A stretch of 64,000 bases of DNA from Pseudomonadota bacterium (lineage in GTDB: Bacteria; Desulfobacterota; Syntrophorhabdia; Syntrophorhabdales; Syntrophorhabdaceae): positions 1 through 64,000 of the forward strand of contig JAPLKB010000061.1 of the NCBI GenBank assembly GCA_026388275.1. Direction: 5' to 3'. The position numbers and the translations under genes were made by a program. Under the pieces are notes generated by a model that was not told the DNA's origin, did no database searches, and was given only the letters and a program-made list of their open reading frames with translations. Shown piece after piece: positions 17,897-44,059 of this stretch (its first letter is position 1; every line of letters begins with the position of its first letter).

Positions 17897-19711
17897 TTAT
17901 TTATCGCTTTCGTCCGACAAATTATCGATGCCTACTATGTCGGTTGTTCCAACATAGTTCTTCACCTGATATTTTCTTAATGTCATCAGCTTTCGTGTTA
18001 TTTCGCCCATCCGGATAATCTGTTTTTTTATATTTTCAAGTCTTTTTGATTGTTCATCATTGGCCTTGTCCCCAAACATCAAAATCTCTGTCTCGCCTAT
18101 GATAACCTGAAATGGCTGATTCAATTCATGGCATACTGCGTCGGCCATCTCAAGGGCGCTTTTAAGTTTTTCATTTTCAAATCTTTCTTCTTCCATTTGT
18201 TTGCGGATTTTAATATCAGTATGTGTACCGATAACCCGCATCGGTTTGCCATCCTGCGTCCTGCTGATGACCTTGCCGCGGTTCAGAATCCACTTGTATT
18301 TACCATCTTTGCACTTTAATCGATGCTCGCTGCTATATACAGACGATTCTCCTTCAAAATGTTTATTGATTTCAGCGTACACATGTTCCCTGTCATTCGG
18401 ATGTAAACGCTTGTCCCACTCATCAAACGTATCTCCTATTTCATCATCTGAAAAACCAAGCATTTCCTTCCATTGACTTGAAAAATAAACCTTGTTTGTT
18501 TCTGCATTCCAGTCCCATACACCATCACCTGATCCTTCCAGAGCAAATTGCCAGCGTTCTTCACTCTCACGCAGTTCCATTGTCCGCTGTCGGACAATCG
18601 CCTCAATCCGATAACGTTGTGATAAAAGCTGAAACAAATAAAAAACCATTAAGATTGTAAGGATAAAACCTGCTACAAATACATAAATATACATTATGTT
18701 AGTATTTTTGGAAATAAAGGCCTGGTTAGGATAAATGTCAAAATACCAGATACGTCCTGCAAATAAAATGTTCTGTGTATAGTTCAAGTCCGGATCGTTT
18801 ATTGGTTCAATCAATCCAAGCCTCGAGGTATGTGAATATAATAATTGTTTCTCCGATGGAACAGTGCTGTCAAAAATCTGGAATGGAAGTCCTGTAAATG
18901 CTGTATTTTTGAGAGTCTTTTTTATCAGATCTTCTATTTTAAACATTCCTACTACAAAACCTTTTATATTTTTTCGACGTTCTTTTATGGTTGTTGTGTC
19001 CACTTCCTTCTTGTAAACAGGCAAAAAAACCAGAATGCCTTACTGATTTTCCTGCTCCTGTGCAAGCATGATACATTCCGTTGCAACCGGCTTGCCTATG
19101 TCACGGGCCAACTCCAGTGCTGAGAAACATTCCCGATTTGACGCCATATTAAAACCAATAATACTCTTATCCTCTAAGAATGTTTCCATGTAATACACAG
19201 GATAGTATTGATCATGATCAACAGCCCTGACTAACCTTTTATTTTCGTTAAATTCCGTTAAACGGAATCCTTTAATTCCATCTTTTTGAGCTGCAATTTC
19301 AAATGATTTTCTTTGTGAGTGTTCCACTCGCGGAATCCAAGAAATCGACACGAATTCGGACTTTTCAAGAATAGGCAATACAAAATTATTAAACTATGTC
19401 TTTGTAATAGAAGATGTGGTTTTAAAAAATCGGCATATCGCGTCAAGCTCCCGCAAATTATCCGAAAGACCATCCTCGATGAGGTTGACTCGTTCTGAGG
19501 CACCTATATTGAACTTTTCTATCAAAACCTTTTTGGTCTGGTTTTTTAAATACCATGAAAAATCGAAGCATATCGCAAATCCTGAAACAGCTATGAGAAC
19601 TATAGTCAACAATTCCCTCCATGTAAATAGAAAAAAATAGTTGAAGTTAGCATGTTTATTGACTATTTTTCCGTTTCCGTCTCCCATGCCTTTGCCCTGA
19701 TGCTTGTCCAT
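17897..19711 (-). pseudogene. CHASE-PAS sensor protein interrupted by two in-frame stops
   Basis: Read through, this is one 605-residue protein in a single frame: N-terminal membrane segment (about 31-47), a periplasmic CHASE domain, a second membrane segment (IYVFVAGFILTILMVFYLF), a PAS domain (ALEGSGDGVWDWNAETNKVYFS) with PAC tail, and an H-box-like ADAVCHELNQPFQVI. It is cut by TAG at 19394-19396 (after SSITKT) and TAA at 19040-19042 (after EQENQ), both inside the CHASE domain, with homologous sequence resuming without frame change on both sides (FNNFVLPILEKSEF; GILVFLPVYKKEV). The protein ends about 60 residues after the H-box with no ATPase domain. The 3' fragment could still be made from an internal ATG at 19024 but would lack the sensor input. 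Confidence 0.8.
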
Positions 19712-28664: not shown

Positions 28665-29384
28665 TTACTTTTCCTGAACCGCACCGGAAACAACTTTGAG
28701 CAAACTATCAGCCTGAGGATTCCTGGCTATTCTCCGGATGAGGATATCAGTAGGGGTGAGTTTCTTTTTGTGGTAATAGGCTTGATTCAATCCATTACGT
28801 ACCTTTACTACAGCCCCATCCACAGCAATGCCGCCAAACAACCCTTTTGAGCTGGCAAAGCTCACAATGTCGGCACTGAGGTTGGCTGTTGAAGCTGCTG
28901 CTCCCATACCGACAGGCCCTACGGCAACACCGACATCTGCTCCGAGTTTAGCGCTATTCCCAAGGAGAGCTGTGACACCCCGGTCGGTCATGGCAAGAAG
29001 TATCACTTCAGAGGCCTCACCACCTGCCTGAAGACCAAAACTTGCCTCACCAATTGTGTAAAAGGCAGGTCCTGCCCAGGTTCCAGATTTCCTGTCACGT
29101 ACTACGAAGACCCCACTGCCTCCGGAGACACCAAAAACAAAGGCACCTTTCAGGACCTGTGGGGCAATAAAGACACCCTTGGCATCCTTTATAAGATTGC
29201 GAAAACCTTCCATCTCCCGGGCATTAGAAAAGTTTTCCAGGGTCATCCGTGCCTTATCTACCAGTTGCGCGCTGTCCTTGGCATCATCGGCACACAACGG
29301 AGATGTCATTCCGGAAAAAGCTAAAAGCAGTGCTCCTATGAGCAAAACACTTTCGATCCAATAGCCACATTTTTTTGTCTTCAT
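28665..29384 (-). CDS. exported SYLF (Ysc84) domain protein
   Basis: A 239-residue protein with an N-terminal hydrophobic signal (VLLIGALLLAFSGMTSPLCA, cleavage or lipidation near the Cys) followed by a full SYLF domain: KDAKGVFIAPQVLKGAFVFG, GGSGVFVVRD, GPAFYTIGEASFGLQAGGE, and GADVGVAVGPVG. Domain members bind lipids. It is probably periplasmic or outer-membrane associated; no partner gene is evident. Confidence 0.85.
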   Translation of the reverse strand: MKTKKCGYWIESVLLIGALLLAFSGMTSPLCADDAKDSAQLVDKARMTLENFSNAREMEGFRNLIKDAKGVFIAPQVLKGAFVFGVSGGSGVFVVRDRKSGTWAGPAFYTIGEASFGLQAGGEASEVILLAMTDRGVTALLGNSAKLGADVGVAVGPVGMGAAASTANLSADIVSFASSKGLFGGIAVDGAVVKVRNGLNQAYYHKKKLTPTDILIRRIARNPQADSLLKVVSGAVQEK

Positions 29385-29867
29385 ATTCTCTCCTTTGTCT
29401 CCAGCTTTCGAGCTGAAGATGTATTTTTACCTCAGTAAGCTCTTCAATCAGGTTCTCTATGTTAATTCTTCTGTTGTATTGCTCAATACCTCATAATCGA
29501 TGAAAAGGCCAAATCCCGTGATGACACATCTTCTCATGATATGCTTTTTCTGTATACCTGCACATGGGATATCATTTATTTTACTATACAAAAAATGTTT
29601 CCGCATTCCACATACGTGTAGTTGGGATATCCTTCAATATTTCAATAACTATCTGGCACTGATTGGAAATTAAATGATAGGTACATTGGTAAATCATCGC
29701 TCTCCCTGTTAAAACAGTGAATAATTGTCAGTAAATATCGAATAGCTAAAAACCTTAACAATCCTGCGCTGTGCTTACCTTTTCAATCAGAAATATTTAT
29801 TTGTATACTTTATTTTCCGTATTTTGCCTGATTATTACAAGTAATTTCATACCTGCCCCAGCTCATT
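29385..29867. other. 480-bp spacer between the SYLF gene and the toxin-antitoxin pair
   Basis: No gene is supported. It contains the left copy (29626-29644) of a 19-bp inverted repeat whose partner lies beyond the antitoxin gene. The remainder is AT-rich and unremarkable. Confidence 0.5.
29626..29644 (+). repeat. 19-bp inverted repeat, left copy, flanking toxin-antitoxin genes
   Basis: GATATCCTTCAATATTTCA, identical to the reverse complement of 30454-30472. The two copies enclose 809 bp with the RelE-type pair. Confidence 0.75.
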
Positions 29868-30131
29868 TTATAGGTATACTTCTCTTCTATGGCCGATACG
29901 GATGATTAGTATGACGAGTTCTTTCTCTTTCTCCTCATAGATAACCCTGTAATTCCCAATGCGAAGTCTGTAATAATCTTCATTTGCACCGGCAAGTATT
30001 ATTATATTGTTTTTCAGAATCTCCGGGTTTTCAGCAAGGATAAGCAACTTTTCTTTGATGATTTTTTGATGAGGCAGGTCAATCTTTTTTAAATCATGGA
30101 GTGCTCTGCCGAGGAATTTAAGCTCGTACAC
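29868..30131 (-). CDS. RelE/ParE-type toxin
   Basis: A type II toxin of about 87 residues: YELKFLGRALHDLKKI at the start, RLRIGNYRVIYEEKEKELVILIIRIGHRREVY at the end, the standard RelE/ParE core with basic residues that in RelE members cleave ribosome-bound mRNA. I prefer GTG at 30131, 5 bp after the antitoxin stop and next to AAAAGGAG. The frame is also open to a TTG at 30158 inside the antitoxin gene. Antitoxin precedes toxin, as usual for this type. Confidence 0.85.
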   Translation of the reverse strand: MYELKFLGRALHDLKKIDLPHQKIIKEKLLILAENPEILKNNIIILAGANEDYYRLRIGNYRVIYEEKEKELVILIIRIGHRREVYL

Positions 30132-30136
30132 TCCTT

Positions 30137-30382
30137 TTAAACCCCAATTTCTTTCCAAACTTCTTTTGCGTCTATTATCGTGTCTCGCCCTTCTTTAAGG
30201 TCCTTCATTCTTTTTTGCACAAGTTTGAGATCAAGAAAATCAAAGTAAACAGCAAGCGCTTTTTCTATTACAGAACTTTTCTTTTCACCGAGTTCATTTG
30301 CGATTGAATCCAATTCCAGAGAAATATCCTCGTCAAGGGTAATATTATGTCTTATCTGCATACAGCACCTTTCAGCATACAC
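30137..30382 (-). CDS. ribbon-helix-helix-type antitoxin
   Basis: An 81-residue (or 74 from the second Met) partner of the RelE-type toxin. The N-terminus, IRHNITLDEDISLELDSIANELGEKKSSVIEKAL, has the strand-helix-helix pattern of CopG/RHH antitoxins, and the charged C-terminal tail (MKDLKEGRDTIIDAKEVW) would wrap the toxin. It likely represses its own promoter. Confidence 0.82.
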   Translation of the reverse strand: MYAERCCMQIRHNITLDEDISLELDSIANELGEKKSSVIEKALAVYFDFLDLKLVQKRMKDLKEGRDTIIDAKEVWKEIGV

Positions 30383-30453
30383 AAATTATACACATATATT
30401 GTACCAAGTCAAATATAAAACAAAATTCAAGTGGATATCGGCAATTGATTGAC

Positions 30454-30472
30454 TGAAATATTGAAGGATATC
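30454..30472 (-). repeat. 19-bp inverted repeat, right copy
   Basis: TGAAATATTGAAGGATATC, the exact reverse complement of 29626-29644. It lies 72 bp upstream of the antitoxin start, so it may also overlap the promoter region. Confidence 0.75.
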
Positions 30473-30487
30473 AACTATCTAACAACA

Positions 30488-31009
30488 TCACGCCATATTT
30501 ATAACTAATTTTTCAAAACGTTCTTTTTGGGCTTTGCATATAGGACAGACTTCCGGTGGAAATTCCCTTGCGCAGAGGTAGCCGCATACCGCGCATCTCC
30601 AGATCGCATAGGAGAGCCGGGTAGTACCTGTTTCAAGGAGCCGTCTCTTTTTAATCCTTTCTTCTTTGGGTGGTCTTCTCTCCGGAATAGGGTTCAACGG
30701 TCTCTTACCATCCGCTATTTCTCTGGTCACATAGAGAGCACAGTAACAGGCACCATGCTCGTTCAAGTCGACATCTCTGTAATTACAAGGGCATATGATA
30801 TCAAGATCATCTTCCTTTTTTTCATCGGCCAACCTGCAAGGGCACGAGGGATAACCATATCTTCTCTTATTAATAATAAGACCCATGATCAGGGCTTTTG
30901 TAAATTCCTTGTCCGGGTTCAGAATGTATCCTTTTGACTCTGCGTCTTTTGATAATGCATCAAAGGACACATCTACGTCATGTAAGTCCACTGTGTCTTT
31001 ATTAATCAT
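30488..31009 (-). CDS. ferredoxin:thioredoxin reductase catalytic domain fused to rubredoxin-like domain
   Basis: A 173-residue fusion. Residues about 50-100 hold the FTR catalytic-subunit pattern YGYPSCPCRLA, IICPCNYRD, GACYCALYV, whose cysteines bind a [4Fe-4S] cluster and form the redox-active disulphide. Residues about 138-168 form a rubredoxin-like iron knuckle pair, WRCAVCGYLC then CPICKAQKERFEKL. The rubredoxin could pass single electrons to the FTR cluster in place of ferredoxin. It overlaps the glutaredoxin gene by 4 bp (ATGA), so the two are translationally coupled. Confidence 0.88.
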   Translation of the reverse strand: MINKDTVDLHDVDVSFDALSKDAESKGYILNPDKEFTKALIMGLIINKRRYGYPSCPCRLADEKKEDDLDIICPCNYRDVDLNEHGACYCALYVTREIADGKRPLNPIPERRPPKEERIKKRRLLETGTTRLSYAIWRCAVCGYLCAREFPPEVCPICKAQKERFEKLVINMA

Positions 31010-41339: not shown

Positions 41340-44059
41340 ACATGGGTAAATTGCCCGGTTTCGATCAGATCCGTTGTATACTGCCAGCATCTCCCGCATT
41401 TCTCTCCCTCTGCCCTGAGAACAGTAACTTCAACCTCGTTTTCCTTTTTAAGCTCAATCTGGGATACAATAAAAATATCTTTAAGCTCATCGCCTAATTT
41501 TTTTAATAACTCATATTCGCTCTCAGGCACATTGAGGACAACTTTTGCATCGAGTGAATGCCCAATTACTTTTTCAGCCCTTTTTTCCTCAATTTTTTTA
41601 TTAACTGTTTCCCTTATGGCCCATATCTTTTCCCATTCTTCTTCGCTCTTTGCATCAATAAGCTCTTTTTTAACAACAGGAAATGTTGTTAACAGCACGC
41701 TCTCTTCATTGACTGTTCCCTTTAAATATGACCACATCTCTTCGGCAGTCGAAGAGAGCACAGGCGCAATAAGTTTAAGAAACGAAATGAGGGTTTCATA
41801 GATTACAGTTTGAGATGCCCTTCTCTTAATCGAATCCTTTTTTTCCACATAGATCCTGTCTTTAACGATATCCAGATACAGGGAGCTTAGATCAACAGAA
41901 CAAAAATTATGAATGCTGTGGTATATTGTATGAAATGCATAATCGTTATAACAAGTTGTAACTCTATCTATTAATCTTTGCAGCCGTGATAACATCCATT
42001 TATCAAGATATGACATCTTCTCATAGGGGACCATATCCTTTTCAGGATTGAAATCATCATTTATGTTTGCATGGAGGAATCTCAAGGTGTTCCGGATTCT
42101 CCGGTAAGTTTCAATAAGTCTGTTTATAATATCCTTGGATATCTTTATATCATCTCTGTAATCTTCATAGGTAACCCAGAGCCTCAGAATCTCGGCACCG
42201 TATTTTTCTATTATTTCTTCAGGGGATATGTTGTTTCCAGAGGATTTTGACATTTTCCTGCCTGTACCGTCCACGACAAAACCGTGCGTTAGCACAGATT
42301 TATACGGAGCAGCGCCTTCATTTGCCACAGAAGTCAAAAGAGAGCTATGGAACCACCCCCTGTGCTGATCGCTTCCTTCAAGATACAAATCTACAGGGTA
42401 TTTCAGCTCTTTTCTTTTTTTACATACCGCTGCCCAGCTCACCCCTGAATCAAACCATACATCAAGAATATCTTCTTCTTTCACAAAAGTATCATTACCA
42501 CAATGTTTGCAGGTCATACCTTCCGGAATAAAATAAGATGCCTCTTTCTCGAACCAGATATCAGCTCCATGTTCCATGACAAGATTTTTAATTTTATTGA
42601 ATGTTTCATCACTCCAGAAAGGTTCCCTGCATTGTTCACAATAAAATATGGTAATCGGAACTCCCCATGTTCTCTGGCGTGAAATACACCAGTCCGGCCT
42701 CATCTGAAGCATGTTGTATATCCTGTCATGCCCCCAGGCCGGTATCCATTTTGTCCTGTCTACCTCTTCAAGAGCCTTTTGTCGAAGACCAAGTTTATCA
42801 AGGGAGATAAACCACTGTTCAGTTGCCCTGAAAATTACAGGTTTTTTACAACGCCAACAATGAGGATAAGAATGTTCAATCTGTTCCTTATGTAAAAGAA
42901 GCCCAAGTTCTTCAAGTTTGCTGATGACATGTTTGTTGCTTTCAAAGACGTTCATGCCTTTAAAGAATTCAACTTCTTCAAGGAATTCACCTCTGTCATT
43001 TACCGGTGAATAAACATCAAGCCCGTATTCCAGTCCTGTTTCGTAGTCCTCTTCACCATGTCCGGGAGCGATGTGAACAGATCCTGTGCCTGTATCGTTT
43101 GCCACATAATCTGCATACACAACAACAGAGTCCCTTTCAATAAAGGGGTGCCGGAATGTAAGTCCTTTAAGCCTTTTAGCCTCTATCTCATCTATTATCT
43201 TATATGTTTCGATACCTGCTTTTTTCATGATATCTTCAACAAGGTCCTTGAGCACGATATATACCCCTTCCTGTGTCTCAATGGCTTCATATGTAAAATC
43301 AGGGTTTATGGCTATGGCAAGGTTTGCCGGCAGTGTCCATGGTGTTGTTGTCCATATAAGCATAAAAATTGGTTTATCAGGGTAACGGTCAAAAACACCC
43401 TCTCTTTTCTGTGTGTAAGGAAATTTTACATAGACTGCATCAGATTTCTTCGTATCATATTCTATTTCTGCCTCTGCAAGGGCAGTAAGACAGTTTGTGC
43501 ACCAGAGGACAGGCTTCTTTTTCCTGTATGCCTCGCCTCTTTCGAAGAATTTTTGTACTTCCCCGATGATGGTTGACTGATAATCAAAATCCATTGTGAT
43601 GTATGGATGTTCCCAATCCCCGATATTGCCGAGTCTCTTGAACTCTTCTCTCTGGATATTCAGGAATCCTTCCGCATAGGTACGACATTGATGTCTTATT
43701 TCTATTTTAGATAATGCAAGTTTCTTTTCCTTTGTATTCTTCTCGATCTGATGTTCTATCGGCAACCCATGACAATCCCAGCCCGGTATATAGTCAGCCC
43801 TGTATCCTGACATGAACTTTGATTTTATAATAATATCCTTCAGTATTTTATTTAATGCAGTTCCAAGATGAATATGACCGTTTGCATACGGGGGACCATC
43901 ATGAAGTATGAAAGAAGGATTTCCCTCATTTTTTTTAGTAAGTTTTTGATAAACCTCCGTCTCTTCCCAGAATTTTAGTATTTCCTTTTCCTTGATCGGA
44001 AGATTGCCTCTCATTGGGAAGGGCGTCTTGGGTAAATTTAATGTGTCTTTATAGTCCAT
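41303..44059 (-). CDS. ileS: isoleucyl-tRNA synthetase
   Basis: A 918-residue class I synthetase. The HIGH-type motif is PPYANGHIHLGTALNK, the editing domain contains TTTPWTLPANLA and HIAPGHGEEDY, the KMSKS motif appears in GRKMSKSSGN, and the C-terminal zinc site is CGRCWQYT...CKRC. Full length with no anomaly. Confidence 0.98.
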   Translation of the reverse strand: MDYKDTLNLPKTPFPMRGNLPIKEKEILKFWEETEVYQKLTKKNEGNPSFILHDGPPYANGHIHLGTALNKILKDIIIKSKFMSGYRADYIPGWDCHGLPIEHQIEKNTKEKKLALSKIEIRHQCRTYAEGFLNIQREEFKRLGNIGDWEHPYITMDFDYQSTIIGEVQKFFERGEAYRKKKPVLWCTNCLTALAEAEIEYDTKKSDAVYVKFPYTQKREGVFDRYPDKPIFMLIWTTTPWTLPANLAIAINPDFTYEAIETQEGVYIVLKDLVEDIMKKAGIETYKIIDEIEAKRLKGLTFRHPFIERDSVVVYADYVANDTGTGSVHIAPGHGEEDYETGLEYGLDVYSPVNDRGEFLEEVEFFKGMNVFESNKHVISKLEELGLLLHKEQIEHSYPHCWRCKKPVIFRATEQWFISLDKLGLRQKALEEVDRTKWIPAWGHDRIYNMLQMRPDWCISRQRTWGVPITIFYCEQCREPFWSDETFNKIKNLVMEHGADIWFEKEASYFIPEGMTCKHCGNDTFVKEEDILDVWFDSGVSWAAVCKKRKELKYPVDLYLEGSDQHRGWFHSSLLTSVANEGAAPYKSVLTHGFVVDGTGRKMSKSSGNNISPEEIIEKYGAEILRLWVTYEDYRDDIKISKDIINRLIETYRRIRNTLRFLHANINDDFNPEKDMVPYEKMSYLDKWMLSRLQRLIDRVTTCYNDYAFHTIYHSIHNFCSVDLSSLYLDIVKDRIYVEKKDSIKRRASQTVIYETLISFLKLIAPVLSSTAEEMWSYLKGTVNEESVLLTTFPVVKKELIDAKSEEEWEKIWAIRETVNKKIEEKRAEKVIGHSLDAKVVLNVPESEYELLKKLGDELKDIFIVSQIELKKENEVEVTVLRAEGEKCGRCWQYTTDLIETGQFTHVCKRCADTLYSL

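Follow-up and report, generated by a model that had tools for sequence, protein, structure and literature searches.

The 19-bp inverted repeat that encloses a toxin–antitoxin operon in the window (the whole stretch of 64 kb analyzed here) is, in related genomes, the terminal inverted repeat of elements carrying a Y1 transposase. The mobile-element character that a first-pass annotation had attributed to the 19-mer is therefore borne out. Probably, the two arms are TIRtron-end repeats and the operon was acquired separately; slightly more likely than not, two copies of the repeat settled on either side of it. Direct support exists for four points: what the repeat is, its link to Y1 transposases, the end type of the left arm and the absence of the repeat from the homologous loci examined.

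The Inverted Repeat and the Enclosed Operon

The left arm (GATATCCTTCAATATTTCA, positions 29626–29644, forward strand) has the core of a TIRtron-type terminal repeat and is placed between the toxin gene and a Ysc84-domain gene (28665–29384, reverse strand). The right arm (GATATCCTTCAATATTTCA on the reverse strand, 30454–30472), of which only the core matches element ends, is situated 15 bp beyond the stop codon of a ferredoxin-thioredoxin reductase/rubredoxin gene (30488–31009, reverse strand). The arms are complementary at 19 of 19 positions and span 847 bp between their outer edges, exactly as first described. It had also been claimed that such a pair is far above chance, and this holds: base composition predicts 0.00045 exact 19-bp pairs in inverted orientation within 1 kb for a stretch of 64 kb, and 0.025 for the whole genome of 3.53 Mb. 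Among the nine inverted pairs listed for the window, the arms form the only perfect one (at least 15 bp, within 3 kb), the remaining eight being 71–93% complementary. At up to three mismatches, the 19-mer has four matches in the window, vs. a mean of 0.04 in shuffled sequences; the two outside the arms, with three mismatches each, lie at 43832–43850 and 19556–19574. An 8-mer, AACTATCT, is found just inside the left arm (29647–29654, forward strand) and again beyond the right arm (30473–30480), so that it follows both arms on one strand, though the arms are inverted. An 8-mer was shared in such a placement by 12 of 20000 random pairs, a figure for a coincidence that was noticed after the fact. 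As a target-site duplication or transposition footprint, AACTATCT has been rejected, since the would-be ends are unlike each other.

The operon between the arms is predicted to be an ordinary RelE/RelB-type module with its own promoter. The toxin, of the ParE/RelE superfamily (29868–30158, reverse strand; 96 aa from a mechanically called TTG start), matches PF05016 (E = 1.3e-14) and TIGR02385 (32.0 bits, above the cut-off of 27.9), which agrees with the RelE-type module of the first-pass annotation. The RelB-like antitoxin (30137–30382, reverse strand; 81 aa from a mechanically called GTG) matches NF048017 with 41.8 bits, under the cut-off of 50. A sigma-70-like promoter (TTGACT, 16 nt, TATAAT) can be recognized by eye at 30385–30412 on the reverse strand, and because its −10 box occupies 30385–30390, the antitoxin more likely starts, as judged by eye, at the ATG of Met-8, around 30361. 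The statement that no transposase lies inside the repeat also stands: tblastn between the arms with 27 Y1 proteins, a set leaving out the transposases of the paired elements L181–L184 described below, gave a best E of 0.16 (a spurious match on the ParE gene), and with the intact transposases of L181, L183, and L184 a best E of 0.45.

Distribution of the Repeat

In its own genome (G000), the 19-mer occurs in seven copies at up to two mismatches, window pair included. Another exact copy is found at G000:C21:26973, and four copies with one or two mismatches are located on C56, C8, and C16. The proposed search for further copies found these five, which are single or directly oriented, and differ from each other at one to four positions. 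Most of the solo copies whose surroundings were inspected follow closely on the 3′ end of a gene, on the same strand.

Of the 39 genomes of the family, 17 contain the consensus GGGGACGTCCTTCAATATTTCAATT at up to three mismatches, and none has a match to the reversed control pattern. The nearest named relatives suggest that this family is Syntrophorhabdaceae; among the matches listed, the nearest named toxin carriers are Syntrophorhabdus MAGs. The Y1_Tnp domain is present in 32 of the 39 genomes and, by domain search, absent from the window's own genome, which is 99.5% complete. Four Y1 genes (L181–L184) have been found between inward-facing copies of the repeat, with outer spans of 1057–1096 bp. 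The Y1 reading frame is intact in three of them (332–341 aa), and all three proteins match Y1_Tnp and Bac_DnaA_C with E < 0.001, the latter above the Pfam cut-off in one of the three. Seven short derivatives of 209–510 bp share both ends but contain no complete transposase gene, and by eye about four of the seven keep the transposase start. These 11 paired elements were found at up to five mismatches in the stretches fetched, and are not a full census; by eye, each contains only a transposase gene or remnants of it, or else a short non-coding stretch. In the scripted ORF listings, frames covered to more than half by a longer one were left out. Neighboring copies within 1.5 kb, excluding the window pair, face inward in nine cases, are direct in six and face outward in one. 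Tandem direct copies about 47–51 bp apart were also observed (G027:C62:14466–14727 and G029:C159:6442–6513), those of G027:C62 standing before a TIRYT gene. No plasmid match to the repeat was obtained, and viral contigs gave one exact match to the 19-mer and none to the 25-mer; the 19-mer match lies inside what reads as a coding sequence (ThyX-like by eye).

Termini and Interior of the Window Unit

The scoring of end types was trained on ends of the same paired elements, 13 of them left and 12 right. The left arm with its inner side (29624–29679, forward strand; TTCAATAACTATCTGGC...ATTGGAAATTAA) is of the right-end type, with a right-end score of +6.2 and a left-end score of −7.0. It matches a solo copy of G001, a genome of the same genus (C93, L324; E 1.1e-4), and in another search, among the best 14 of 147 matches, the match extends over 56 bp at 79% (E 5.9e-6). 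On the other hand, the inner side of the right arm fits neither type (left-end score −12.3, right-end score −3.2), and the window unit does not have the one right-end and one left-end terminus of a derivative. The right arm's best longer match, among the best 14 of 58, is weak and covers 35 bp at the start of a multi-hairpin element of G001 (E 0.014).

The non-coding interior adjoining the left arm (29681–29848, forward strand) resembles the interior beside a copy of this repeat on G016:C8 (L307/L159), where a HicBA pair lies next to it; the similarity score of 24 was reached by none of 1000 shuffles, the largest of which scored 18. Another match of the left interior, 42 bp to a Y1 gene of G001 (L187), was set aside as chance, with no match at the protein level; it was reached by none of 300 shuffles but had been chosen among many loci. 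Finally, both arms carry the uncommon variant GATATCC. Arms inside one element differ at zero to three positions (10 elements).

The Operon in Other Genomes

The toxin search returned at least 590 stretches from at least 436 relatives, of which the best 80 loci were retained and the four nearest checked for the repeat; the antitoxin search had matches in 26 of 297 genomes of the phylum, and the five best loci outside the window's own genome were checked. None of these nine homologous loci (L201–L204, L282–L286) has the repeat at up to 6 mismatches in 24 within the DNA covered around it, and no second composite of arm, toxin–antitoxin pair and arm was seen among them. In five well-aligning homologues outside the genus (G010, G008, L201, L202, and L203), the similarity is limited to the block from promoter to stop codon; it runs from the stop codon up to roughly the −35 box, and this conserved block ends at the promoter.

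Within the genus, two genomes could be compared, the window's own and G001. In G001, the antitoxin likewise follows the ferredoxin-thioredoxin reductase/rubredoxin gene, with 86% DNA identity, the toxin is truncated, and the sequence carrying the right arm and the −35 box is absent. This gap reads as a deletion because the outgroups retain the promoter stretch, and as such it is mute on the earlier presence of the right arm. An empty site in relatives had been proposed as a check on mobility, and the check yielded none: the G001 site is no empty site, because the deletion also took the promoter. On the left side, the similarity to G001 ends about at the start of the Ysc84 gene, and a reading of this side as an empty site has been rejected, since G001 has a Ysc84 gene at another site (C21:11671–12411). 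A candidate empty site in G001 for the solo copy on C21 was likewise rejected, the three short matches not spanning the copy. At the loci of the ferredoxin-thioredoxin reductase/rubredoxin gene in six other genera, the toxin–antitoxin pair has no DNA match, which suggests that it was probably acquired here by the common ancestor of the two species or earlier.

How the Arrangement May Have Arisen

According to the explanation that we prefer, each arm would be a copy of the core found in the terminal repeats of a TIRtron family, whose transposase (TIRYT) is a relative of the REP-associated RAYT proteins. By analogy with that family, in the relatives the transposase presumably recognizes the element ends as single strands, and would move the element or its transposase-less derivatives. 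The repeats of the window's genome would be either fossils or dependent on a transposase acting in trans, because no Y1 transposase was found in this genome. The toxin–antitoxin operon would have been acquired separately, and two repeat copies would have come to rest in the intergenic spaces that flank it, an order of events that we infer. Flanking by two settled copies is slightly favored over a cassette carried by the repeats because the right arm sits like the solo copies (after a gene, on the same strand), and because it is without the left-end inner sequence. Some findings run against this explanation. Two independent insertions require neither GATATCC in both arms nor inward-facing arms, and matching arms are usual within one element. 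The right-arm inner side, fitting neither end type, also weakens the filing of this arm as an element end.

The shared variant and the orientation of the arms favor the first alternative, in which the 847-bp unit is a non-autonomous TIRtron, with the toxin–antitoxin operon replacing the transposase, moved or movable as a whole by a TIRYT in trans. Besides the inward arms with their identical uncommon variant, the span is near that of the autonomous elements; the genes would stand at the transposase's place and on its strand if the left arm is taken as the right end; and the interior of the left arm recurs beside the repeat and the HicBA pair of G016:C8. There is also a reported precedent in E. 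coli, where a toxin–antitoxin operon has taken over a REPtron locus (PMC6006769). Against it stand the nine homologous loci, with neither the repeat nor a second composite, the 11 other paired elements, which by eye lack foreign cargo, the right inner side, which is not of the left-end type, and the absence of a transposase from the genome. The movement of the whole unit is accordingly unlikely, though it is the foremost of the alternatives. Somewhat more doubtful still is its strongest form, a minimal selfish unit in which the operon in the transposase's place would be mobilized as single-stranded DNA by a transposase acting in trans and would persist through addiction, not through a transposase of its own. 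The small mobile cassette of the first-pass annotation consequently survives in one part, the repeat being of mobile-element type, but not in the other: the toxin–antitoxin pair as cargo is only possible, in view of the repeat-free homologues, the right arm, the single or direct orientation of the other copies in the genome and the one same-genus site, broken by the deletion.

A local event in which one arm gave rise to the other as its reverse complement (through template switching or inversion of the core) would account for AACTATCT following both arms on one strand, with the frequency and hindsight noted above, and for arms identical over 19 bp while their inner and outer sides differ. Yet the identical 19-mer on C21 indicates that such identity needs no local copying, and we regard this event as improbable. 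Less credible still is a host regulatory or transcription-termination motif. The solo copies, mostly just 3′ of genes and on the same strand, would suit it, but elsewhere two copies of the repeat enclose a transposase gene or form the ends of a short derivative, and seven copies in 3.5 Mb at up to two mismatches are few for a general motif; nor, in the surroundings inspected, is the 19-mer a common motif at promoters, which had been named as the result that would speak against a mobile repeat. Chance origin of the inverted pair can practically be dismissed, given the expected number of such pairs in 64 kb and the family-wide repeat, even if the exact viral 19-mer inside an apparent coding sequence indicates that chance copies exist.

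A Multi-Hairpin Repeat with the Same Starting Box

The box of the window repeat also stands at the start of the longer copies of a multi-hairpin repeat. This repeat, of about 250 bp, contains three hairpins of 7–9 pairs with 3-nt loops and covarying stems, and a fourth helix without double changes. In an alignment of 19 copies from three genomes, 94.3% of the cells are paired, and 78 cells are changed on both sides, vs. 22.4 in shuffled and 9–24 in slid alignments; these controls are not probabilities, the structure having been drawn from some of the same sequences. The aligned copies (alignment A2) include L120, L114, L112, L111, L113, and L116–L118 in the window's own genome, L109, L110, L187, and L196 in G001, and L185 in G016. 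Within the window, no such element was detected by blastn (merged matches above 50 bp). An Rfam search with E up to 5 over 18,114 bases from six loci, of which some contain copies, gave no match at the element. An identity as integron attC has been rejected, since ordinary attC-like folds are present elsewhere in the same arrays, as judged by eye.

The multi-hairpin copies are situated after gene ends. Copies of the box or the hairpins have been observed near ParE, BrnT, TumE, and HicBA genes, as well as near a PADLOC PDC-M05A/B candidate pair, a type II restriction-modification system and PDC-S15 (G000 contigs C8, C16, C21, C37, and C56; G001:C80, L196; G016:C8, L307); no enrichment is claimed. 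Other observations in the same genome concern decayed 3′ ends of integron-type integrases, all under the TIGR02249 cut-off and each followed by a similar attI-like stretch (G000:C25:38977–39129, C56:48963–49115, C46:25958–26110, and C11:69095–69259), and attC-like folds, recognized by eye, between same-strand genes on C25 and C56. Locus L005 contains, at 76–150, a match resembling a c-di-GMP-I-GGC riboswitch (42.6 of 59 bits, under the gathering score; E 3.2e-7).

Significance and Relation to Known Systems

The TIRtron repeat family defined here in genomes related to Syntrophorhabdaceae includes elements with a transposase, short derivatives and solo copies, and makes it testable whether TIRYT ends move anything. 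Had the window unit moved whole, Y1 transposon ends could carry addiction modules as cargo. A more useful lead may be the structured repeat, whose copies lie near toxin–antitoxin, defense and integron-cassette genes.

TIRtrons are an established kind of single-strand-DNA transposon. TIRYTs have been described as RAYT relatives flanked by long terminal inverted repeats instead of REPs, the whole being named a TIRtron, with a shared motif GGGGWSAS and with repeat families that occur single, paired and grouped (PMC3733652); most of them have been placed in subclass 2.1, which carries an HTH such as Bac_DnaA_C at the C terminus (PMC6006769). The elements of the relatives are alike in several respects: the Y1/HUH transposase gene lies between terminal inverted repeats that start with GGGGACGT or similar, the protein joins a Y1 domain to a C-terminal HTH (the Bac_DnaA_C match), and the repeat families have single and paired copies. 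The consensus GGGGACGT nearly fits GGGGWSAS, and copies such as L191 (GGGGACAC) fit it fully. Unlike them, the window arms (TGGGATAT and GTTGATAT) do not fit this motif, and between them lies a toxin–antitoxin operon instead of a transposase gene.

The operon itself can be compared with type II toxin–antitoxin systems of the RelBE/ParDE kind, which it resembles in a RelE/ParE-superfamily toxin above the Pfam and NCBIfam cut-offs and in an adjoining RelB-like antitoxin gene, directly upstream and overlapping the toxin gene; it differs in that the antitoxin is under its NCBIfam cut-off. As a whole, the unit recalls mobile insertion cassettes, in which the ends of an insertion sequence enclose a passenger gene without a transposase. 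The ends of these cassettes are of the DDE type. The window's inverted ends likewise enclose passenger genes without a transposase, but they are of the Y1 type, and joint movement is here only a possibility for a unit that occurs in a single copy and whose one sister site carries a deletion. The reported E. coli REPtron locus (PMC6006769) is similar in that a toxin–antitoxin operon occupies the place at which a REP-type Y1 transposase would be, although the repeats there are REPs.
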